64,000 bases of DNA from Halodesulfovibrio sp. Its GTDB lineage: Bacteria > Desulfobacterota > Desulfovibrionia > Desulfovibrionales > Desulfovibrionaceae. Positions within the stretch are counted from its first letter, which is position 1, and each line of letters opens with the position of its first letter. The notes below the pieces were generated by a model that was given only the letters and a program-made list of their open reading frames with translations, did not search any database and had not been told where the DNA came from. Below are positions 35,694-47,678 of this stretch, in pieces. Where the stretch lies: the NCBI RefSeq assembly GCF_015482765.1, contig NZ_JADMLB010000076.1, forward strand, positions 1-64,000, read 5' to 3'. The position numbers and the translations under genes were made by a program.

Positions 35694-36527
35694 TGTGTTC
35701 TCCTTAACGTTTGCAGCGAGCTGCCCTGCCAAATTCAGGGCAAACTCCAAGTCGCCTATATGGTCAACAAGGCCAGCGGACAGAGCCTGCTTGCCTGTAA
35801 AAATTTTGCCGTCTGCCATTGCCGGATGCACCGCGTTCACGTCTAAGCCTCTGTGTTCAGCCACAGCCTCAACAAAGGTGTCGTACGCTGCCTGCAAATG
35901 TCCCTGGAGGTACGTCAGGGAATCATCCGTAAGGCTCTCGCGCATGGCAGCCTTGTAGGCTCCGGCTTTAATGATGGTGCGCTTAACGCCCCGTGTCTCA
36001 TCCTTGGCTGTTTCGTCATAGTGTGTGGTAAAAACGCCAATGGAGCCGACAACGGCAGACTTGGTGGAAACTATTGCGGTGGCGGAGCTGGCAACCCAAT
36101 ATGCAGCGCTGCACATGGTGGCATCTGTGTAGGCAACAATGGGCTTAATGCTGCGACCGCGCGAAATTGTGCCGGACAATTCGTCCAATCCGGCAAGAGT
36201 TCCGCCCGGGCTGTCCACATCAAGCAACACGGCCTTCACAGCATCGTTTGCCAATGCATGGCTGATATGCTTGCCAAGGGTTTTGCAGGAGCAGCCGCCG
36301 CACATCTCTTCAAATGCGTCCAGCCTGCGCCCCATCACGCCGTACAGGTTAATGACGGCAATACCGTTGAGCGTTTCGTACGGTTCATCATCACGATTGC
36401 TGCGTTTACTGGAACCGGTAAACGCCAACGGATTGCCCTGTGCGTGCGCTTCCACCACTTCGCAAATAGCTTCCAGTTTCTCAGGTAAAATGGCGAAGAG
36501 TTCGCCTTGTAAAATTTTAAGACTCAT
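35181..36527 (-). CDS. head maturation protease, SppA/S49-type (C-like)
   Basis: A 448-residue protein starting at the ATG at 36527, overlapping the portal end. The protease domain (residues about 50-270) has the S49 Ser in TMCSAAYWVASSA and the Lys in the following region, with DVDSPGGTLAGL. The C-terminal 170 residues are a helical, acidic scaffold domain rich in Ala, Glu and Lys. As in lambda C, the protease matures the head and the C-terminal part is also made alone (see 35181-35693). Confidence 0.85.
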   Translation of the reverse strand: MSLKILQGELFAILPEKLEAICEVVEAHAQGNPLAFTGSSKRSNRDDEPYETLNGIAVINLYGVMGRRLDAFEEMCGGCSCKTLGKHISHALANDAVKAVLLDVDSPGGTLAGLDELSGTISRGRSIKPIVAYTDATMCSAAYWVASSATAIVSTKSAVVGSIGVFTTHYDETAKDETRGVKRTIIKAGAYKAAMRESLTDDSLTYLQGHLQAAYDTFVEAVAEHRGLDVNAVHPAMADGKIFTGKQALSAGLVDHIGDLEFALNLAGQLAANVKENTMGTEAVKQAAEQSITYAALTVEGLKVHAPSLVEQIVGEAAVDAKALEKAAEEATKTERSRVVEIIKAGAGTELALKAIEGGDPAHDIYKQMVTAMQDGKADALASMESTLGDGVEAKGEEKKPDGAGGGAKPDFMKLVNDHMKAEGVEKGTAIRTMARAHSEVYQQWLNR

Positions 36528-38028
36528 CCTCTTCCTCACTGTTTGCTGTTCCTTCACTTCCCGTTTCTTTGACTGGCGGTCTCAAACTTACGCCGTACTT
36601 TTCTTCCAGATCCTGCAAGTGCTTCAGCTCTTTTGCGCGCTGCTCAGTTTCCACACGCCAGTCTTTGCCGTCCCTGCCGTACACGTCCTTCAACGAAGTC
36701 GTATTGCTGTTCAAACCAATCACATCAGCTTCAGCCGCTTTCTTGCGGTCAATCTGGCGCATCGGCTGCGGCAAAAATTCAGCGGAGTAATACGCATCAA
36801 TGTTGGCAATAAAATGCTCGGAGGAAGTAACAGGAAGGAGCGAGCGAAGGCACATTTCGTACAGCATCCACGCCATTACAGGCGCATTAAAGGCACGGTT
36901 AAGAATAGTGTGCTCGTAGGCGGCAACCTCTTCAGCCTTTTCAAAGCTCGCTTTGCTGGCAGAGTAAGAGGCTTGGTACTTGCGCAGAATATTTTCCTGC
37001 CCGCGCACAGTACCAACGCCAATACGGTCATGAATCATGCTGGTAAGATCTGTCAGATTCTGGGGAGCTGCCGTGTGAGAAAACCAGTCCATGGACTCAC
37101 CCTTAAGCCCCTGCAGAATGGTGCCGTTATCCGTCTGGATAATGCGGTCTTCAATGTCCAAATTCTTATTCGCGCCCATAGCGCCCTGCCCCACGGCGTT
37201 AATAAAGCCCACGTACAGGTTGCGCACTACAGCGCCCACCAGCACGGCGTCGCTCATGTCGTTTGCGTCACGCAGGGTTTTAATAAGGGTCGCGTAAATA
37301 GAATCCTGCTTGTACTCGGCAACGTTTCGCACATCGCATGTAAGCAGCAGCTTGGGCAGCCCTGTTTTTGGATCACGTATAGCTACCCGATCATAGCAAT
37401 CGGTCGTATTGCCAACAGGTCGGTCAGGTTTTCGGATAAATGCATGGGTAGGTTCGCCGTATTTTCCAATTTCAATACCGTCAAAAACTTCTCCGGTAGC
37501 ATCAGAAGGCGTCCCCAAACGGGTAGGACAAACAGGCAGCAGCGCAAGCCCAAGCGGACGCAGCGCATCACTGCGTACAACAGCCTGAGAAAGTCCGATG
37601 CCGAAGATCTTCCACTGAAAGTATTGCAGCGCCTGCAAGGCATAAAAGTTCAACCGCCGCTGGGCATCGCACCACAGGTGCACACCAAGCCCCCAGCGGT
37701 TAAACATCTGATTCGCGCGTTGTTCAAAAAGCTCCGCCCATGCTGTGTCTTTGCCAAGCCATTCAGCACGGGGAGTAAAGGAAGGAGTAAGCCCGATGCC
37801 GACAGTCTCAATAAGACCGCCTTCAACAACACCGTGCCCCATAGAATCGTTCGTGTAGAGATCAAGCGCCCGTTCCACAACGCGGGCTTTTTCCCGCTCT
37901 GCCATACGTTCGCTAATAACCGTTGTCACATAGTTAGCCATGGTGCCTTGAATACTGGCACCACTACGGCGAACGGTTTTCCCGTATGAACGCTTACGGG
38001 AGAATGCGCGATTGGCCTGCCCACGCAT
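36517..38028 (-). CDS. portal protein (lambda B family)
   Basis: A 503-residue protein. GMVEGGLIETVGIGLTPSF-like text (VVEGGLIETVGIGLTPSFTP), FNRWGLGVHLWCDAQRR and a C-terminal AYYSAEFLPQPMRQIDRKK match phage lambda-type portal proteins, which form the dodecameric DNA gate at one capsid vertex. gpW-like gene is just upstream. Confidence 0.9.
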   Translation of the reverse strand: MRGQANRAFSRKRSYGKTVRRSGASIQGTMANYVTTVISERMAEREKARVVERALDLYTNDSMGHGVVEGGLIETVGIGLTPSFTPRAEWLGKDTAWAELFEQRANQMFNRWGLGVHLWCDAQRRLNFYALQALQYFQWKIFGIGLSQAVVRSDALRPLGLALLPVCPTRLGTPSDATGEVFDGIEIGKYGEPTHAFIRKPDRPVGNTTDCYDRVAIRDPKTGLPKLLLTCDVRNVAEYKQDSIYATLIKTLRDANDMSDAVLVGAVVRNLYVGFINAVGQGAMGANKNLDIEDRIIQTDNGTILQGLKGESMDWFSHTAAPQNLTDLTSMIHDRIGVGTVRGQENILRKYQASYSASKASFEKAEEVAAYEHTILNRAFNAPVMAWMLYEMCLRSLLPVTSSEHFIANIDAYYSAEFLPQPMRQIDRKKAAEADVIGLNSNTTSLKDVYGRDGKDWRVETEQRAKELKHLQDLEEKYGVSLRPPVKETGSEGTANSEEEDES

Positions 38029-38387: not shown

Positions 38388-39245
38388 CTAGCTCGTTTCT
38401 AGAACTTCAGAAAGATCTACAGGGAAAAATTTCGACAACCCAATCCAACCAATCATAGTTCCAGCCTCTGAAATAACACATCGAGTAATACGGCTATCAT
38501 TCGAAAGTAAAAAGACTGCTAGTGTTGAAGTGAGCTTCTTCTCTTCAAGGTATCTTCGCACATTAACTGGTGACAATTTTTTTATATCATCCAGCTGCTT
38601 CAAAAACTCAGGGATCATTTCAACGTGGGACATATTCGCCATCTGGAACGCACCAACGCCAGCCATATATGTCCTATCTCGCTCTGTTATATCTACAGGT
38701 AGGGAAATATGCTCGAGAAAAACTCTACAAAACTCTTCAATATAATCAAGAGTTGCACCTGGGATACTTACTTTTCTAACAAAAACATAAAGAGCTAGAA
38801 ATTCAACATGACGGGCAGACAATTTAGGGAGAAGTTCAAGCGCTTCATTGGCTACAAGCTCTGTTAAATCAGAAGTGTCCTTCTTAAGATTTAAAATAAA
38901 AACATCACATAAAAGTTCAAAGTTACTTTTTTCTCCCTTTTGCGCAGCTGCTTTTGTCATTTGTTGTAACTGAAACTGAACATTAGGCTCAGCAAACCGT
39001 TGTGCATCTATCTCTTCTTTATGTTCCTCAAGCAGGCTAAACAACTGCCTCGTAACCTCACCTAATCGCTGATCTATCGTTTCTCTCGCATCCGCAAGCA
39101 ACTTAGGGAAATTTGCATCAAAAAGAAGATTAACAATTCGTTCAACGTCCGCAAAGCTCATCCCATGATAGTGATTTTCTATATTGCCTTTTGCTTGATT
39201 GGCAACAGCACCGCTACCAACCTCCATTTTCTGATCCCCAACCAT
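38388..39245 (-). CDS. LPO_1073/Vpar_1526-type protein
   Basis: A 285-residue protein. The N-terminal text VGDQKMEVGSGAVANQAKGN followed by YHGMSFADVERI is the hallmark of this uncharacterised family, which has a short Gly/Asn repeat domain and an all-helical remainder. It probably oligomerises through the repeat. It lies directly behind a one-helix membrane protein that ends in a related repeat, so the two likely interact. AT-rich and flanked by structural genes, this looks like phage-borne accessory, possibly defence, cargo. Function of the family is not known. Confidence 0.7.
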   Translation of the reverse strand: MVGDQKMEVGSGAVANQAKGNIENHYHGMSFADVERIVNLLFDANFPKLLADARETIDQRLGEVTRQLFSLLEEHKEEIDAQRFAEPNVQFQLQQMTKAAAQKGEKSNFELLCDVFILNLKKDTSDLTELVANEALELLPKLSARHVEFLALYVFVRKVSIPGATLDYIEEFCRVFLEHISLPVDITERDRTYMAGVGAFQMANMSHVEMIPEFLKQLDDIKKLSPVNVRRYLEEKKLTSTLAVFLLSNDSRITRCVISEAGTMIGWIGLSKFFPVDLSEVLETS

Positions 39246-39422
39246 TTACTTCTCCCCTTTATTATTCAGAATATCACGCCCTGCCTGATTCGCAGTGCTA
39301 TTGTCCCCAACAACCATAGACTGACTAGAAGAACGCCGTTTAAACAAAGCTACAACAACTGTTAAAGCAAAAACGCCAATACCTGAAAATATCCATTCAT
39401 AATTCTTCGATATAAAATCTAA
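39246..39422 (-). CDS. small single-helix membrane protein with VGDNSTANQAGRDI tail
   Basis: Residues after the Met at about 39422 give a membrane helix (IFSGIGVFALTVVVALFKRR) and then SMVVGDNSTANQAGRDI, a repeat like that starting the next protein. It ends one base before that gene begins. An upstream start at 39464 would add 14 residues, with weaker support. The shared repeat suggests that it anchors its partner at the membrane. Confidence 0.55.
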   Translation of the reverse strand, partial: LDFISKNYEWIFSGIGVFALTVVVALFKRRSSSQSMVVGDNSTANQAGRDILNNKGEK

Positions 39423-39491
39423 CATCACGACCTTCTTTAAAAGCATTAACTCCGCAATGGACATAGGAAAACGACAAAATTAAATTCTTTT

Positions 39492-40911: not shown

Positions 40912-41196
40912 ATGAAACTTGAATTCGCATGTAAAGAAACTGCCAAGCTCTACCAGACAGGGAAGACTAAAGTTTTTCAAAGCATTGTTAAGGTTGCTCT
41001 GCGCAAACTTGATATGATTGAAGCTGCTGCGACGTTAAACGACCTTAAGGCTCCTCCGGGGAACAGGTTAGAAGCACTTCGGGGAAACCGATCTGGACAG
41101 CACAGCATCCGCATCAACAATCAATGGCGCATCTGTTTTTGCTGGGACGAACGCACCAACACAGCAGCGCAGATTGAAATTGTCGACTACCACTAA
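40912..41196 (+). CDS. higB: HigB-type mRNA-cleaving toxin
   Basis: A 94-residue RelE/HigB-family toxin. RKLDMIEAAATLNDLKAPPG, LEALRGNRSGQHSIRINNQW and RICFCWDE match HigB, a ribosome-dependent endoribonuclease. It precedes its antitoxin by 15 bases, the reversed order typical of higBA. Stabilises the prophage or defends against other phages. Confidence 0.9.
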   Translation: MKLEFACKETAKLYQTGKTKVFQSIVKVALRKLDMIEAAATLNDLKAPPGNRLEALRGNRSGQHSIRINNQWRICFCWDERTNTAAQIEIVDYH

Positions 41197-41211
41197 CCGC
41201 GTGAGGTGAGT

Positions 41212-41514
41212 ATGCGTATAAAAACACATCCAGGCGAAATTCTGCGCGAAGAATTTATGCAGCCGTGGAACATTTCGGCCAACAAGCTTTCCGGCTTCCT
41301 GCGCGTGCCGCTCTCTCGTATTACTGAAATCGTAAACGAGAAGCGCAGCGTAACAGCAGACACTGCAATACGGCTTGCAAAGTTCTTCGGCACCAGTCCT
41401 GAGTTTTGGCTCAACCTGCAAACGCAGCATGACCTTTCCAAAGCACAGGCAAAACACCTTGCAGAACTAAACTCCATTCCAAGCTGTGAATCTGTAGGCG
41501 CATGTCAGCAGTAA
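41212..41514 (+). CDS. higA: HigA-type antitoxin
   Basis: A 100-residue HTH protein (THPGEILREEFMQPWNISAN, SRITEIVNEKRSVTADTAIR, GTSPEFWLNLQTQHDL), a typical HigA/VapI-like antitoxin. Start at the ATG at 41212 behind GAGG. It neutralises HigB and represses the operon. Followed by a bidirectional terminator. Confidence 0.9.
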   Translation: MRIKTHPGEILREEFMQPWNISANKLSGFLRVPLSRITEIVNEKRSVTADTAIRLAKFFGTSPEFWLNLQTQHDLSKAQAKHLAELNSIPSCESVGACQQ

Positions 41515-41581: not shown

Positions 41582-42376
41582 CTACGCTGCGCGTTCTACA
41601 ATTTGTTCCTTCACGTAGAAAAAGTAGTAATTGCTTTTCTGATACGGAAGAATTTTTCTTGCTTCACGCGCCCAAGAGTGATGTCCGGGGATATCCTGTA
41701 TCCCTTTCATGAAGCACCACTTTTCGAAACGCTTATACAGGTGCTTACTTTGTACTCGGTACTTTGAAGCTCTGTTTGTTGCTGGCTCTAGTTTATCGCA
41801 AGCCAACCACTCTTCAACCATTTGGTAGATTTGACCACTACGGTGCAATGGAGTCTTACTGAGCATCGCAGGTCTTGCACCAACCATCGCAGCATATTTT
41901 GTGAAGTAGTAATCAATCCGCTCAGGGGTATTGTCGTCCATCTTTGCAGCCTGCAAAGCGCAGCTCAAAACTTGGGAACGCACATGCGGCTTCAAATGCA
42001 ATACTTCATCAGGCAACTGAGTGTGATCCAGTTCGCAAGGTTCTTCCTCACGTTCTATAGTGTAGGTTCCGTTCTTTCTAAGCGCTGGGAGCACTTCACT
42101 CACTACCCAGTCTTCAAACCGTTCAGCTTCAGGGAGACGGGAACGGAAAATGAGACGATACAGATCGCGTTCAGGGATAATTTTCATTTTCTGCATGCCG
42201 CCAGCCGAAGGGGTCTCCATTTCATCGACCCCTTTGCAATGCATACGGATTGCATCCGCAGAACGGGCATATCCCAACACCTCTGCTACATCTTTCCCCA
42301 CAAACCATATTTCGCCATCACGTAACAACGTTCTTACGGTATTCATACCAAAATCAAAATGTACTAAATCAGACAT
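41582..42376 (-). CDS. BRO-type phage antirepressor
   Basis: A 264-residue protein. Residues 1-110 are a BRO-N domain (FDFGMNTVRTLLRDGEIWFV, DVAEVLGY, ADAIRMHCKG, LYRLIFRSRLPEAERFEDWV). The C-terminal region is a separate basic helical domain (SKHLYKRFEKWCFMKGIQDI). Such proteins bind and inactivate phage repressors. Neither repressor in the window has a self-cleavage domain, so this is a probable inducer. GGAGGG precedes its ATG, and TATAAT (minus, 42400-42405) lies about 25 bases upstream with a GTGCG-N9-CGCAC repeat. Confidence 0.85.
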   Translation of the reverse strand: MSDLVHFDFGMNTVRTLLRDGEIWFVGKDVAEVLGYARSADAIRMHCKGVDEMETPSAGGMQKMKIIPERDLYRLIFRSRLPEAERFEDWVVSEVLPALRKNGTYTIEREEEPCELDHTQLPDEVLHLKPHVRSQVLSCALQAAKMDDNTPERIDYYFTKYAAMVGARPAMLSKTPLHRSGQIYQMVEEWLACDKLEPATNRASKYRVQSKHLYKRFEKWCFMKGIQDIPGHHSWAREARKILPYQKSNYYFFYVKEQIVERAA

Positions 42377-42513: not shown

Positions 42514-42780
42514 TTAATTCACTTTTGTAACTTGACTCTTTAGTACTATTTCAGTCGGGCAGGAATTAAGCACCCCAAAGCTGCCAAACTGCGCTTCTAA
42601 TGCATCACTAAGCTTTTCCATCTTGCCTTCTGCATCATTGCAGAGGGCATCAAGAACAAAACCTGCAAGAGAAGCGTGATCTTTGTCACTGCTTTGCAGA
42701 ACCTCAGCATACGCTTGAATTGGGTAAAGAATGTCGTTGAGATGGCTCATAAGAGCCGCGGGAGTGGTTGATTTAGGCAT
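42514..42780 (-). CDS. small leader protein upstream of antirepressor, icd-like position
   Basis: An 88-residue helical acidic protein (YPIQAYAEVLQSSDKDHASL). Its ribosome binding site AAGGAGG is five bases from ATG and overlaps the target of the antisense RNA encoded just upstream. In P1, P7 and P4-type systems a small ORF (icd/orfX) sits between c4 and the antirepressor gene and must be translated for antirepressor to be expressed. The sequence itself is not recognised. Confidence 0.6.
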   Translation of the reverse strand: MPKSTTPAALMSHLNDILYPIQAYAEVLQSSDKDHASLAGFVLDALCNDAEGKMEKLSDALEAQFGSFGVLNSCPTEIVLKSQVTKVN

Positions 42781-42788
42781 GGTGCCTC

Positions 42789-42809
42789 CTTGTTCTCGGT
42801 TGTTTCAAG
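42789..42809 (-). promoter_or_regulatory. c4-type target sequence over the leader ORF ribosome binding site
   Basis: On the minus strand CTTGAAACAAC-CGA-GAACAAG, where the last AAG begins AAGGAGG. It is complementary in two blocks (11 and 7 bases) to the antisense segment of the RNA at 42827-42908. Confidence 0.75.
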
Positions 42810-42814
42810 ACCTG

Positions 42815-42908
42815 AAAATAAAAAATGTCGGGAGCTTGAAACAACGCGAACAAGTGCGCCCTGCAAACTTTTCCCATACGGGTATTGTATGGCTTGCAGA
42901 CTCCCGAC
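42815..42908 (-). ncRNA. c4-like antisense RNA with its own terminator
   Basis: Read on the minus strand from 42908: GTCGGGAG, then an inner hairpin (CTGCAA...TTGCAG enclosing CCATAC...GTATGG), then the antisense blocks CTTGTTC-GC-GTTGTTTCAAG (42854-42835), then CTCCCGAC which closes the outer stem, then ATTTTTTATTTT. It is thus a structured RNA of 80-90 bases ending in an intrinsic terminator. The blocks can pair with the ribosome binding site region 20 bases downstream of its end. Structure, antisense target, small ORF and antirepressor are the same set as the c4 immunity RNA of phages P1, P7, P4 and N15. Confidence 0.8.
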
Positions 42909-43002
42909 AAAATAGAGGCAAATTAATTTTGGATACACCTTTCCCAAGGAACGTCTGGAAAAAAGGCATAAAAAAGCCACTGCTGACGGGAGCGGTTAGC
43001 CG

Positions 43003-43036
43003 CTTGTTCTTAGGTGTGTTTCAAGCACCTTTTTTT
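43003..43036. other. second c4-target-like sequence and plus-strand terminator
   Basis: On the minus strand CTTGAAAC ... GAACAAG recurs (43025-43003), upstream of the c4-like RNA. On the plus strand AGGTG...CACCT followed by T7 (43012-43037) forms a short terminator. It could be a second pairing site for the antisense RNA. Confidence 0.5.
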
Positions 43037-43100
43037 ATTAAGCATGGATGTTGTTGGGGTGTCAAGGAGGAGGCAAAATTACAACCATACGACCATTGGA

Positions 43101-44969
43101 CTATGAAGTAATGTTACGTATTGCTTCCTCAATTAATTTGTAAGGGTTATCATCCTTTGAAATCACAATTGGAAAGCCTTTAACATCAATAATTGGGCTT
43201 TTCAAACCTACAACCAACTTACTATCCGAAACTTCATACGTAAAAAGAGATGCCTTTTCAGGAGAAAGCCTCTTCGCCATTTGTGCGGCTTCTTGAGCAT
43301 TAGTAATATTAGAAAGCCTATTCACAACGGCTGGCACAACATTCAAAAGCATATCTTGCATTGATTCGGCTTCATCAATAAGGACACCTTTAGCAGCAAA
43401 CTTCACAGCATCATACAAATCACCATACTGTGCTTTAACCTTATCTATTGAAAGAGCTGAAGCTTTTTCTATCTCTTGAAGCACACGGTTAATTTTATCA
43501 CTGTTACCTTCAGCTGTGCCATCCAAATAATAAGACTCTATAGCTCCTTTTCGTAAAACAAAGCAACCAACGCAAGTTAGCGTCGTTAATAACTTTTCCA
43601 ATCGACTCTTGATGATAAGGAAAGCTCCTCCCGCCATCGCTCTTAGCTCTTCATCGGGAATACAAAATAAACTACAAAATGCAGCTCGCCTTTTTTCTTT
43701 TTCAATATCCTTTGCGTCTTCCTGCTCGCCTGACCAATATGCATGTTGACATGCGTATTGCTTAATATCATCCCAATTTGTGGCAACCAGTTTCTTAAAA
43801 TCATCCAACACTTTTTTTGCCAATTGATGACAAGAATCATGACCATCTTTTGCAAGCTCTTGATCAAGCTCTGGCTGATCTGAAAGCATATGAAGAGCAA
43901 ATTTTGAACTATCGACAAGCGTATCAGGGTCAGTAAGAACAATGCATTTTTTACCCATCAAATTAAACAGCTTAACAGAGGAAAGCAGTTCATCATTACC
44001 TAATACAGGTAAAACGTAAGATCCTGTTGCCTCGATATGAAAGTCGAAATGCCCCGACAAAAAATTAACAAAATATTCATCAGAAATCCCCTCCACTAAA
44101 AAAGGTTTGGAGGCAAACAAAGCTGCTTTGTGACCATGCCGCAATCTTGCTAATAAATTTTGTACCTTCCTACCCTTGAGCACTTCATGCTCTGGGTCAA
44201 TTTGTAACGGCAGGGCATAAGCAGAATTACAAAAAATCAATGATGACAAATCATCCCTAGTGCGCAAAGAAAACATTTCTGCTGAGTGTGTCGCCTGAAT
44301 AATTATCTTCTTGTAACTGTTTTCTGTTGGGTATCCAGCTACCCGACTAATTTCATTTTGCAAAAACAATTGAAGTTGAGGATGCAATGAAACTTCTGGC
44401 TCATCTAAAAAAAGCACTCCAATGTCATCATCATACAATCTAGCCAATAGACATACAACGTGAAGTAAACCAGAAGCTTCACGTCCCGCAGAATATTCTT
44501 TTGCTTCTGGGTCACTACTTGTACTAAAAAAAATTTTTAAAGAGCCTGTGTCCCAGTTAACGGTAACTTCACGCTGCAACAACTTTCTTAACCTTTCCTG
44601 AACTTTAAGCCGAATATCTGGTCTGGAAGAAAATGTTAAAAAACCACCATTTAACGTCTCTATTTGGTGCTGCCGAACAACATCTTTCTTGTACGCAAAC
44701 TGTGCGCCATCATAGTTTATACGTCCATTACGCTGACCATCACAGTCAGCTCGATAAGACTCAAACTGTCCTACTCTTCCTGCTGATACAAACACGACCT
44801 TCTTACTACAAAAAATAGAACCTAAAGCCTGTTGCATCCCCCTCATTAATTGAGTTTTTCCACTACCATTAGGTCCAAGAATAGTTGTAATTCCTGACCT
44901 AATCAAAAGCTCGGTCTTTACACCAAACCGCATGCAATTTATTTCTATTGGAAATTCCATAGTTATCAC
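43101..44969 (-). CDS. OLD-family ATPase-nuclease
   Basis: A 622-residue protein. Walker A is ILGPNGSGKTQL (about residues 31-40), the ABC-type signature region EYSAGREASGLLH, and Walker B VLFLDEPEVSLHP. The C-terminal Toprim nuclease part has FLVEGISDEYF (catalytic Glu) and IVLTDPDTLVD (Asp-x-Asp). This is the OLD organisation; P2 Old blocks lambda growth by nuclease action. No Gabija-type helicase (GajB) is beside it, so it is a stand-alone class. AT-rich. Likely anti-phage cargo. Confidence 0.8.
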   Translation of the reverse strand: MITMEFPIEINCMRFGVKTELLIRSGITTILGPNGSGKTQLMRGMQQALGSIFCSKKVVFVSAGRVGQFESYRADCDGQRNGRINYDGAQFAYKKDVVRQHQIETLNGGFLTFSSRPDIRLKVQERLRKLLQREVTVNWDTGSLKIFFSTSSDPEAKEYSAGREASGLLHVVCLLARLYDDDIGVLFLDEPEVSLHPQLQLFLQNEISRVAGYPTENSYKKIIIQATHSAEMFSLRTRDDLSSLIFCNSAYALPLQIDPEHEVLKGRKVQNLLARLRHGHKAALFASKPFLVEGISDEYFVNFLSGHFDFHIEATGSYVLPVLGNDELLSSVKLFNLMGKKCIVLTDPDTLVDSSKFALHMLSDQPELDQELAKDGHDSCHQLAKKVLDDFKKLVATNWDDIKQYACQHAYWSGEQEDAKDIEKEKRRAAFCSLFCIPDEELRAMAGGAFLIIKSRLEKLLTTLTCVGCFVLRKGAIESYYLDGTAEGNSDKINRVLQEIEKASALSIDKVKAQYGDLYDAVKFAAKGVLIDEAESMQDMLLNVVPAVVNRLSNITNAQEAAQMAKRLSPEKASLFTYEVSDSKLVVGLKSPIIDVKGFPIVISKDDNPYKLIEEAIRNITS

Positions 44970-45107: not shown

Positions 45108-45341
45108 ATGCTAAAAAACACCGCCACCATCACAGAACTCCAAAACTCCCCACTGAAAACAGTCCAGAAAGGCAACGGCTCCCCTGTCGCTATTCTGGAG
45201 AACGGGGAAACGGTCTTTTATTGCGTCCCTGCCAAGGCTTGGGAAGCACTTATGGAGCAGCTTGAAGATGCAGATCTCGCACGAATTGCAAAAGGGCGGG
45301 AAAACGAACCGACCGTTGCGGTAACACTTGATGAAATTTAA
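45108..45341 (+). CDS. Phd/YefM-family antitoxin, orphan
   Basis: A 77-residue protein: ITELQNSPLKTVQKGNGSPV, AILENGETVFYCVPAKAWEA match the DNA-binding N-terminus of Phd/RelB-type antitoxins. No toxin follows: a strong terminator begins five bases after the stop and the next gene is on the other strand. Either the toxin was lost or the antitoxin serves as an anti-addiction or autorepressor gene. Confidence 0.75.
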   Translation: MLKNTATITELQNSPLKTVQKGNGSPVAILENGETVFYCVPAKAWEALMEQLEDADLARIAKGRENEPTVAVTLDEI

Positions 45342-45460: not shown

Positions 45461-45709
45461 CTAAGCCACGTCAACACTCTTGAAACAATGTCCGCATTTT
45501 TCGCATTTGTGATACCTCTCGTGGACGTTTTCGTACCAACCCATACTTCGGGTCACCTTGCACCTTTCAGCGCCGCAAACGGGACATACGGCTCCTTTTT
45601 TTGCATTGAAGTCCACAGCCTTTGCTTTACTCACCTCGCGCATAATCTTGCGGAAGGTTTCTTTCGGAAGATTATGCAAATCCGCTATGCATTTCTTGTT
45701 ATCTTGCAT
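45461..45709 (-). CDS. zinc-ribbon protein, Ogr/Delta-like (putative late regulator)
   Basis: An 82-residue protein with CPVCGAERCKVTRSMGWYENVH-like layout in two parts: CPVCGAERC and HKCEKCGHCFKS. Two CxxC knuckles about 30 residues apart resemble small zinc-binding activators of phage late genes. It overlaps the large terminase end by 11 bases, so it belongs to the late operon. The activator role is not proven. Confidence 0.5.
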   Translation of the reverse strand: MQDNKKCIADLHNLPKETFRKIMREVSKAKAVDFNAKKGAVCPVCGAERCKVTRSMGWYENVHERYHKCEKCGHCFKSVDVA

Positions 45710-47678
45710 TTGGGTTAATCCTCCCCAGCCGTTTCATACGGCCATTAAAGGCTTTAGGCTGCCCCTGCACAACAGGCGCTTCCACTTTCGGGGTTACTAC
45801 GTTCCAGTACGGCTGATCCAGTGTAACCAGTGCAGGCATCCAGTCTGCGTGGGCGCAGGCCGCTGCGTACACTTCGCAGTCCAGCAGGTGGTTGTTGGCG
45901 CTTTTAGCGCGCCATGCAACAGTTCCGTTTTCTTTTTCCACCCGCTCCTCCGCTGTCATCTGGGTAAAATACCGCTCGTCCGTATCCTTGTGTAGCCACA
46001 TGGGCTGCCGTGCATCTTCACCAATCCGTGCGGAAAAAATAGTGTCCTTCAGGTCGTTGGTGTCCAAGGTGTACAAGCCAATCTTGTCCTGCCCTGCTGC
46101 CGCATCCAGCGGGTTAAGCTGCATGCGCGATGCGCGAACTGTCAGCTGCTGCGTTCTGGAAGCACCCTTGATGCCGGTAACAACGTTGTCAGGAAAACCA
46201 CGACTCGGAAGCGTCACAAGCCAGTTTTTCACCTCGTCCGTCTTTGACCAGCCCTCAATTTCGGTTTCACCGCCACCGATGTCGATGCCCGCGCGCCAGA
46301 TCGGATAACGCACATTTGTCCGGCTCACATGCGGGAAGGTAGTGTTGAACAGCAGCTCTTCCACGTCCTGCCATGAATCAAGCCAACCGTACTGAATGAG
46401 GAATGATTCACGGGTTCGCATCCAGCCGCGCACGGTAAACCAAAAGCCCGCCATCTGCATATCAATGCCGCAAGTTAAGGCAAGCACGCCTTCCGGCACC
46501 ACCATCGCCTCGCAGTCTGGGCGCACCATCTTGCGCAGCACATCCGCGTCCGTCTGCACTGCCTGCACCTTGTACGGCATGGCTTTGTGGTCGTTGTCAT
46601 ACTTACGCAGCAGCTTAGGGTCGCCGCTGTTGTACGCCTTGAACCAGTCAGACATCACCTTGGAGAGTTTCACAAAAGGAGAAACCCAGCTCGGGAAGTG
46701 GTAGCCCACTTTTGTGGGGCGCTCTATTTCGCGTTCCGCATGCATGTCACCGCCGCGCACAGCCAAATCACGCATGTGGTCGTTCCACAGCGCACCGCAT
46801 TTCTCGCAGCGATAACGGGCTAAATCCTGCACCAGAATACGCTGCGGGTCGCTTATGGTTTCCATTCTGCCATCGCAGTGCGGGCAGGTTTCAGCATCAG
46901 GAAAGCCCTGCCAACCGCAGCTTTTACACAGGCGCGGCACAACAATGTTCTTGTCGGTCATTACCTGCCTATGTCCGCAAAGCTCAATCGGACAACGCGC
47001 CCGCACTTGGTAAATCACCTGTGCGTCATGCTTCAGCCCGCGCCATATGGAAGAATTCTTTTCGCTTCCGCGCGGCTTGGAATAACGCATGGTCTTTGCT
47101 TCATCCCCATAGGAGATCTGGCGTTCCATCATGGTCTGCACTGCATACGGTGCGTAGGCGTCCTCTTCATCCAAGCCAAGATCACGCATAGTCACGGAAG
47201 ACATGGAAGCTTCAGAGTGTGAATACATGCCGTAAATGGTGGAGCCTTTAAATCGAACCTGCCCCTTGTTCACGGTTTCCCCGTCGGAAAGCATTCTGCG
47301 CAGCTCACTGGAAGCCAGAATATGGCGCGCTATCTTCTCGTCCATTACGCGTTTCAGGTTTTCCCTGTCCGGCATACCAAGCCCTGCAGGAGCAGGAGAA
47401 CGGTATTGGTTTGCAAGCAGGCAGTCATAGGCAATGGAAGTTTTAGCAACCTGCGAAGTACCGCAAATGATGATCTCGCGTACTTCCGGTCTGTCCCACA
47501 TGTCCATGATGTGCTTTGCCCAGGGAATGATGTCGTGCCGAAAGTTCTGCCCCTTAAACGGGCCGGTAACGAGGAAGAAGTGCCTGCGGGAAAAGTCATA
47601 CGTAGAAAGCCATTCCCGAACCACAAGCACCTGCTTTTCTCCTTCACGCAGTTCAAAAGGCGGTGGTAAATACGTCAT
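45699..47678 (-). CDS. terminase large subunit, GpA family
   Basis: A 659-residue packaging motor. Walker A-like CGTSQVAKTS (about residues 73-82), acidic DLGLDEEDAYA, and a nuclease part with GIDMQMAGFW and AGIDIGGGETE match lambda GpA-type terminases. A zinc-binding insert is visible (CKSCGW, CPHCDG, CEKCGALW). It translocates DNA and cuts it into the prohead. Start overlaps the small-subunit stop by one base. Confidence 0.9.
   Translation of the reverse strand: MTYLPPPFELREGEKQVLVVREWLSTYDFSRRHFFLVTGPFKGQNFRHDIIPWAKHIMDMWDRPEVREIIICGTSQVAKTSIAYDCLLANQYRSPAPAGLGMPDRENLKRVMDEKIARHILASSELRRMLSDGETVNKGQVRFKGSTIYGMYSHSEASMSSVTMRDLGLDEEDAYAPYAVQTMMERQISYGDEAKTMRYSKPRGSEKNSSIWRGLKHDAQVIYQVRARCPIELCGHRQVMTDKNIVVPRLCKSCGWQGFPDAETCPHCDGRMETISDPQRILVQDLARYRCEKCGALWNDHMRDLAVRGGDMHAEREIERPTKVGYHFPSWVSPFVKLSKVMSDWFKAYNSGDPKLLRKYDNDHKAMPYKVQAVQTDADVLRKMVRPDCEAMVVPEGVLALTCGIDMQMAGFWFTVRGWMRTRESFLIQYGWLDSWQDVEELLFNTTFPHVSRTNVRYPIWRAGIDIGGGETEIEGWSKTDEVKNWLVTLPSRGFPDNVVTGIKGASRTQQLTVRASRMQLNPLDAAAGQDKIGLYTLDTNDLKDTIFSARIGEDARQPMWLHKDTDERYFTQMTAEERVEKENGTVAWRAKSANNHLLDCEVYAAACAHADWMPALVTLDQPYWNVVTPKVEAPVVQGQPKAFNGRMKRLGRINPNAR

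Follow-up and report, generated by a model that had tools for sequence, protein, structure and literature searches.

The DNA analysed here, a 64-kb stretch of a Halodesulfovibrio sp. contig that we call the window, probably carries a prophage immunity unit in which an antisense RNA of the sRNA-Xcc1 family (Rfam RF02221) works like c4 of phages P1 and P7 and CI of phage P4. The RNA is complementary to a site at the start of a small open reading frame (ORF88) that precedes an antirepressor gene (BRO), and to a second copy of that site in its own leader. The elements of the locus, in the direction of transcription, are:

43060..43065, minus strand: putative -35 element TTGACA, identical in three genus relatives
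43037-43045, minus strand: conserved ATGCTTAAT covering the -10 region, identical in three genus relatives
43013..43029, minus strand: leader hairpin GGTG-a1-CACC presenting a1 (CTTGAAACA, 43017-43025), which co-varies with a' and a2
43003..43009, minus strand: b1 (GAACAAG), leader copy of the b target, which co-varies with b' and b2
42991..43004, minus strand: putative antiterminator hairpin AGCGG-CTAA-CCGCT, whose 5' arm begins within b1
42970..42995, minus strand: putative terminator hairpin CCGCTCC-CGTCA-GCAGTGG followed by C and T6, mutually exclusive with the antiterminator
42818..42909, minus strand: sRNA-Xcc1-family antisense RNA
42848..42854, minus strand: b' (CTTGTTC) in the P3 loop, from sequence and alignment
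42835..42845, minus strand: a' (GTTGTTTCAAG) between P3 and the closing stem, from sequence and alignment
42799..42809, minus strand: a2 target (CTTGAAACAAC), exact complement of a'
42789..42795, minus strand: b2 target (GAACAAG), exact complement of b', overlapping the Shine-Dalgarno (SD) sequence
42785..42791, minus strand: SD sequence AAGGAGG of the 88-residue ORF, from sequence
42514..42780, minus strand: ORF88, in the icd position, a predicted helical hairpin with homologues in the relatives G007, G004 and G001
41582..42376, minus strand: Bro-N antirepressor (BRO; Pfam E 1.5e-23; PHROG anti-repressor Ant E 1.9e-47)

The RNA belongs to the sRNA-Xcc1 family

The initial annotation predicted a minus-strand RNA of 80-90 bases, closed by a stem and followed by a T-rich run, and our analysis bears this out: the RNA at 42818-42909 (-) is a three-way junction of ~92 nt, whose ends on the minus strand, GTCGGGAG...CTCCCGAC, form the closing stem and lead into T6, and whose fold of -34.8 kcal/mol (z = -4.46) was equalled in stability by none of 200 shuffles. 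The proposed check with the Rfam C4 covariance model (RF01695) turned out otherwise, as this model found no match at E <= 1 in 42700-43150 and C4 was therefore rejected as the family of the RNA; as a control, the same model recovered P1 c4 itself at 68.8 bits. Instead, RF02221 was the sole Rfam family in that interval, matching over the whole model (1-87) with 55.9 bits (E 2.6e-7), above the curated cut-off of 53, so that the RNA is a member of an existing family. The RNA is the only RF02221 match in its own genome. Alignment and fold both reveal the architecture of the family, with a closing stem, a P2 with its ATACAATACCC core and a P3, and covariation of the closing stem and its pairs was seen over 93 distinct rows of an alignment that, being fitted to the model, leans towards it.

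In earlier papers sRNA-Xcc1 appears as an integron- or island-encoded RNA linked to virulence, with targets predicted in the host, or as one that may regulate symE (PMC2996969, PMC12189769, PMC11701678, PMC12444791, PMC8780938), and one report annotates C4 and sRNA-Xcc1 as separate RNAs (PMC12189769). The literature searched, which comprised the matches listed and left most subscription papers outside, yielded no antirepressor role for sRNA-Xcc1.

Complementary sites at the SD sequence and in the leader

Blocks b' and a' are exact complements of b2 (7 nt) and a2 (11 nt), respectively, and together form two colinear blocks of 18 pairs, confirming the earlier observation of two such blocks in a target that overlaps the AAGGAGG of the 88-residue ORF. 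When the downstream 100 nt were dinucleotide-shuffled 3000 times, no shuffle reached 18 pairs (maximum 15); each 11-mer of a block occurs a single time in the window. On the minus strand downstream of the sRNA the order is CTTGAAACAAC..GAACAAGGAGG, then the ATG of ORF88. The inverted repeats of the locus were also found as I3, I7 and I13 in the inverted-repeat listing.

Missing from the initial annotation was the leader upstream of the RNA, in which 43003-43025 constitutes a second copy of the target blocks (a1b1) with 16 pairs to the sRNA (4 of 3000 shuffles reach 16), followed behind b1 by a terminator-like hairpin. The putative promoter ahead of it rests on conservation in four genomes, because a strict consensus sigma-70 promoter scan reported no site at TTGACA/ATGCTTAAT; similarly, a strict terminator scan did not report the imperfect stem at 42970..42995 (-). 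We also observed that the a1 hairpin, at 43012-43030, reads as a plus-strand terminator by virtue of a window-specific T-run that is absent in the three relatives.

The unit is carried by three relatives of the genus (G004, G007 and G001), with the following versions of the two sites:

Window: a site CTTGAAACA, b site GAACAAG
G004: a site CTTCAAACA, b site CAACAAG
G007: a site CTTAGAACA, b site TACATAG
G001: a site CTTGAAACA, b site CACACAA

In every genome a' and b' complement the local a and b sites, and the leader and SD copies agree, the sole exception lying in G004, where a single a2 base forms a G-U pair. Outside the blocks the RNA scaffold is nearly constant across the window and the three relatives. 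On the basis of these three relatives, the three sites (sRNA blocks, a1b1 and a2b2) change together, and the compensatory changes that the initial annotation had looked to in related prophages are present, the blocks varying while complementarity is kept. A search for relatives across 149 genomes, including the window's own, found 29 with an RF02221 match (20 above the cut-off), one of which, G008, has 13 sRNA-Xcc1 copies; no close DNA relative of the unit appeared in the phage collection at E <= 0.1.

Downstream pairing across the family

Loci were gathered from the 149-genome search, from core-motif scans of 84,980 species genomes (69 stretches) and of IMG/VR (at least 120 stretches) and from the genus-relative set, the core motif selecting the P2 core and not complementarity. 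Of 18 sampled loci, 17 matched RF02221 at the gathering cut-off, with L061 as the exception. A covariance model built from 41 sequences gave 98, 118 and 44 matches, 260 in total (for IMG/VR among the matches listed), which were reduced to 213 unique and 210 usable sequences (3 truncated rows dropped) and then to 154 clusters at 80% identity, the window RNA falling within the cluster of a relative.

We scored pairing as the number of pairs, in up to two blocks, between the trimmed RNA loops and the downstream 100 nt. Over the 154 clusters the cognate mean was 11.98 pairs versus 8.29 for noncognate combinations, and the best permutation mean of 10,000 was 8.86; at least 12 pairs were reached by 108/154 clusters versus 3.85% of noncognate pairings. 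The 46 clusters below 12 pairs, 38 of them below 11, speak against the immunity-unit reading. An ORF follows b2 in 98 of the 108 well-paired clusters, starting at a median of 9 nt beyond b2, and an SD-like core, identified by a short-word rule, begins within b2 in 84 of them. Duplex energy, calculated with the closing stem not fully trimmed, also separated cognate from noncognate combinations (-22.4 versus -17.5 kcal/mol), but was noisy, with 4/154 cognates ranked first, and was dropped for the two-block count.

Some copies stand in arrays. Tandem sRNA-Xcc1 copies occur on contigs 3, 4 and 26 of G008 (L231-L234), where 5 of the 13 copies stand immediately ahead of a further copy or unit and lack both a strong leader match and an SD-proximal target before an ORF of their own, and the remaining 8 have a leader match or an SD-proximal target. 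In Neisseria weixii (L094, 4610-5651) two sRNA-Xcc1 and two C4 RNAs are interleaved along about 1 kb of a single strand, and in Xylella fastidiosa De Donno the sRNA-Xcc1, isrK and C4 matches adjoin on one strand within about 400 nt (PMC12189769), as if an isrK-like leader came before the C4 RNA. A candidate orphan RNA is found in Xanthomonas melonis (L043, 5691-5775), where sRNA-Xcc1 has 16 pairs to an a1b1 leader and only 5 downstream. When the low-scoring (orphan) RNAs were compared with the targets of other loci, no excess of matches was seen (15 found, 18.3 expected).

Genes that follow the RNA

First ORFs were scanned for 88 complete cases plus ORF88 (n = 89), 10 of the 98 being cut by locus ends and left out. 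Pfam domains were Bro-N in 17, Phage_pRha in 14, AntA in 10, KilA-N in 8, P22_AR_N in 4, ORF6N in 2 and SymE in 1, counts that do not add up to a protein total as one protein may match several domains; PHROG 373 (anti-repressor) matched 32/89. Among the domains recognised in first ORFs, those of antirepressors or Rha prevail. Where the first ORF was shorter than 130 aa (29 units), 16 had a further ORF, 100 aa or longer, within 350 nt, with Bro-N in 3 and P22_AR_N, AntA and SymE in 1 each.

Annotated phages gave a similar picture. An RF02221 RNA stands directly before ant of Aaphi23, the anti-repressor gene Ant of Pmp3 and the KilA-N gene of phage 4316, within the annotated anti-repressor CDS of Smp131 and in a unit of PDP110P1 that lacks annotation. 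Four of these five score at least 11 in downstream pairing; Smp131 scores 9 by the rule, and by eye its GTAAGAAC and GTCAACAGGAG are seen to lie further apart. Among 5426 complete E. coli genomes, 374 match the PDP110P1 unit, with at least 80% of it covered in 341, and the 10 of 375 records listed carry an antirepressor annotation under it. We considered 24B_1 of Phi24B as an experimental member and rejected it, since this 20-nt RNA originates at a different locus, lom-vb_24B_43 (PMC4426718, PMC10732415). Antirepressors are frequent partners of sRNA-Xcc1, and they are not the sole ones, because symE also follows this RNA, both among our ORFs and in Xanthomonas integrons, where a cassette with sRNA-Xcc1 upstream of the toxin gene symE is reported to be more widespread than any other and to occur in 13 species (PMC12444791).

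In the window, the gene after the 88-residue ORF is indeed a BRO antirepressor, as first annotated, and the two are separated by 137 nt. ORF88 matched no Pfam, PHROG or PADLOC family; its homologues share 59% (G007), 56-58% (G004) and 38% (G001) identity, and its structure model is a helical hairpin (mean pLDDT 72). ORF88 and BRO are kept together in G004, with 56% identity for BRO. In G007 the RNA and ORF88 are retained and the 4.4 kb that follow contain no BRO match, and the G001 contig ends too soon to show whether BRO follows. Given the 137-nt gap and the situation in G007, calling the locus a complete circuit was an overstatement. A private BRO promoter noticed by eye (TATAAT and a GTGCG..CGCAC dyad before BRO) was dropped, as it is not conserved in G004.

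These data bear on a reading in which RNA and ORF88 form a pair akin to a type I toxin-antitoxin system, with ORF88 as the effector, perhaps a toxin, and BRO a mere neighbour. The G007 locus would suit such a pair, as would the symE cassettes (PMC12444791), the small unclassified ORFs that follow many Desulfovibrionaceae units and the annotation of P1 icd as a cell-division inhibitor. We nevertheless think it unlikely, since the recognised first-ORF domains are mostly antirepressor or Rha domains, G004 retains ORF88 (58% identity) along with BRO, and ORF88 is without a Pfam family. Control of an antirepressor by the RNA, with ORF88 as the intervening small ORF, is the reading that we prefer.

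The placement of the locus away from a regulatory region, within cargo, was part of the initial annotation and agrees with our analysis in so far as genes for portal (36517-38028) and terminase (45699-47678) lie on either side of the unit. Immediately upstream of it, 43101-44969 (-) encodes an AAA ATPase with an OLD-like TOPRIM domain (PADLOC best matches GajA/Old), likely a defence-type cargo gene. Downstream of BRO, on the opposite strand, a HigB-like toxin gene and then an HTH gene (40912-41514, +) are likely a toxin-antitoxin pair. Other neighbours are a Phd/YefM-like antitoxin ORF (45108-45341, +; below the Pfam cut-off) and, between the portal and the other cargo genes, an ORF pair at 38388-39464 (-) of 285 aa (phrog_19542) and 72 aa, the latter with a weak PADLOC match to PDC-M43A (E 5.4e-6).

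The leader as a candidate attenuator

Leader copies of the target are common in the family. For 149 clusters 180 nt of upstream sequence were available, and RNA and leader form at least 13 pairs in 110 of them, versus 2.8% of noncognate combinations. When at least 12 pairs were required downstream and at least 11 in the leader, the latter a lax limit that 19% of noncognate pairs reach, both sites were found in 98 clusters, the downstream site only in 6, the leader site only in 34 and neither in 11. For hairpins we used the 125 clusters with at least 12 leader pairs together with the window and one relative (127 leaders). A hairpin with a T-run follows b1 in 97/127 (mononucleotide shuffles: mean 7.35, maximum 12 in 20 rounds), the other 30 having no terminator by the rule used. 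A competing stem that shares the 5' arm of the terminator exists in 74 of the 97 (shuffled mean 46.6, maximum 56 in 100 rounds in which the intervening stretch was shuffled), with at least 4 pairs in 58 (shuffled 18.3, maximum 26) and a start within b1 in 62 (shuffled 27.7, maximum 39); the background of short stems is high, and the excess over shuffles is clear.

Blocking a1 and b1 in folding predictions raised the median probability of the terminator in the 97 leaders from 0.28 to 0.89 (0.23 with a1 alone blocked), with a rise of more than 0.2 in 51 leaders and a fall in 4, and the P1 leader went from 0.55 to 0.999. For the window leader, blocking only a1 and b1 left the probability at 0.03, another hairpin then abutting the T-run, and blocking 3 further bases as well raised it from 0.05 to 0.93. 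The terminator-like hairpins after b1 suggest antisense-controlled attenuation, with the window leader, as judged from its predicted folds, a candidate attenuator.

Alternatively, a1b1 could serve as a sponge or decoy, titrating the RNA and setting a threshold, with no role in attenuation. The 34 of 149 clusters with a leader score of at least 11 (a score that noncognate pairs also reach in 19% of cases) and no strong a2b2 would be in keeping with this, and for Gifsy-1 of Salmonella the idea has been raised that the leader RNA IsrK might inactivate the complementary STnc1160 RNA, an idea that a co-expression test did not support (PMC4825925). The terminator-like hairpin directly after b1 in most leaders, the competing stems in excess of the shuffled control and the dependence of the predicted terminator on blocking of a1b1, but not of a1 alone, make the decoy doubtful in our view and favour attenuation.

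A model for the locus

Taken together, the pairing and its covariation support a c4-type class of mechanism for the window locus. We propose that a single leader transcript starts near 43030 (-) and would run through a1b1, the sRNA, a2b2 and ORF88, possibly into BRO, and that the sRNA would be freed from it by processing or termination. Through the P3 loop (b') and the single strand that follows (a'), the sRNA would pair in trans with a2b2 and cover the SD sequence, silencing ORF88 and, by polarity or coupling, BRO, whose silencing would keep the prophage in lysogeny and provide sequence-specific immunity. Pairing of the sRNA with b1 would open the antiterminator hairpin and favour the intrinsic terminator, and the sRNA would thereby also limit its own transcript.

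Since leader elements, target and sRNA all fit into about 250 nt of a single strand, the blocks a', b', a1b1 and a2b2 might instead be alternative folds of one transcript that acts in cis and releases no free RNA. This is decidedly unlikely: the closing stem co-varies (in an alignment fitted to the model), and family members are reported as discrete RNAs, in X. campestris as a species of ~100 nt on Northern blots whose mapped ends give 88 nt (PMC2996969), and in Xylella as transcripts detected from the homologues (PMC12189769). That the locus is a set of chance inverted repeats, or the plus-strand terminator that the hairpin and T-run at 43012-43030 score as, with no regulatory RNA at all, is scarcely credible when none of 3000 shuffles reaches the window pairing, the blocks co-vary in relatives and the plus-strand T-run is absent from all three.

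An immunity unit with a trans-acting sRNA, our preferred reading, would give a testable function to an Rfam family of unclear function. Current accounts take sRNA-Xcc1 for a virulence RNA, or one carried in vesicles, with targets in host and plant, or else make it a symE partner, whereas its phage genomic signature points to antirepressor control. More broadly, and tentatively, sRNA-Xcc1 may form a second class of immunity RNA for phage antirepressors, spread across the proteobacteria and equipped with an attenuator under antisense control; its tandem arrays and integron-borne copies, the latter as reported for Xanthomonas (PMC12444791), might be stores of immunity specificities directed in trans against incoming phages. 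For the target copies in the leader, annotated as putative sites in P1, antisense-controlled attenuation offers a concrete hypothesis, and the four natural specificities on one scaffold in one genus (the window and three relatives with distinct b sites) are a ready set for a comparison of heteroimmunity.

Comparison with known systems

By score the window RNA is a member of the same family as the Xanthomonas sRNA-Xcc1, which is expressed as an ~88-nt RNA (PMC2996969). P4 offers a precedent for the proposed attenuation and is alike in its described arrangement: CI is an antisense RNA with complementary sites up- and downstream, seqA and seqC, through which it brings about transcription termination (PMC4825925, PMC10111431), but P4 silences its own replication genes. 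The isrK-orf45-anrP locus of Gifsy-1 likewise has a short leader RNA that extends to a Rho-independent terminator, read-through to a small ORF and an antirepressor gene, and a processed RNA of ~80 nt, but IsrK is reported as activating anrP (PMC4825925); the isrK model had no match at E <= 0.1 in the five phage loci.

The closest parallel in layout is with P1 and P7. The c4-icd-ant arrangement named in the initial annotation holds for gene order and not for RNA family: the window RNA has no C4 model match at E <= 1, the RF02221 P2 core ATACAATACCC..GGGGAA is absent from the P1 c4 sequence, and in many RF02221 loci, unlike c4, the antirepressor itself is the first ORF. c4 is processed by RNase P (PMC5320573), and c4-a1b1 is tabulated as an element in Weinberg 2010 (PMC2864571). 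As in P1 and P7, the promoter comes first, the b block lies at the ribosome-binding site and a small ORF precedes the antirepressor. In the P1 record icd is annotated as a cell-division inhibitor that is apparently required for ant expression. P1 also shows polarity of icd on ant. The annotated P1 order of a1, b1 (both putative), c4, a2, b2, icd and ant1 is that of the window, and the P1 leader continues after b1 with GCGG-CCGC-GCGG-TATTTTT, in the same arrangement.
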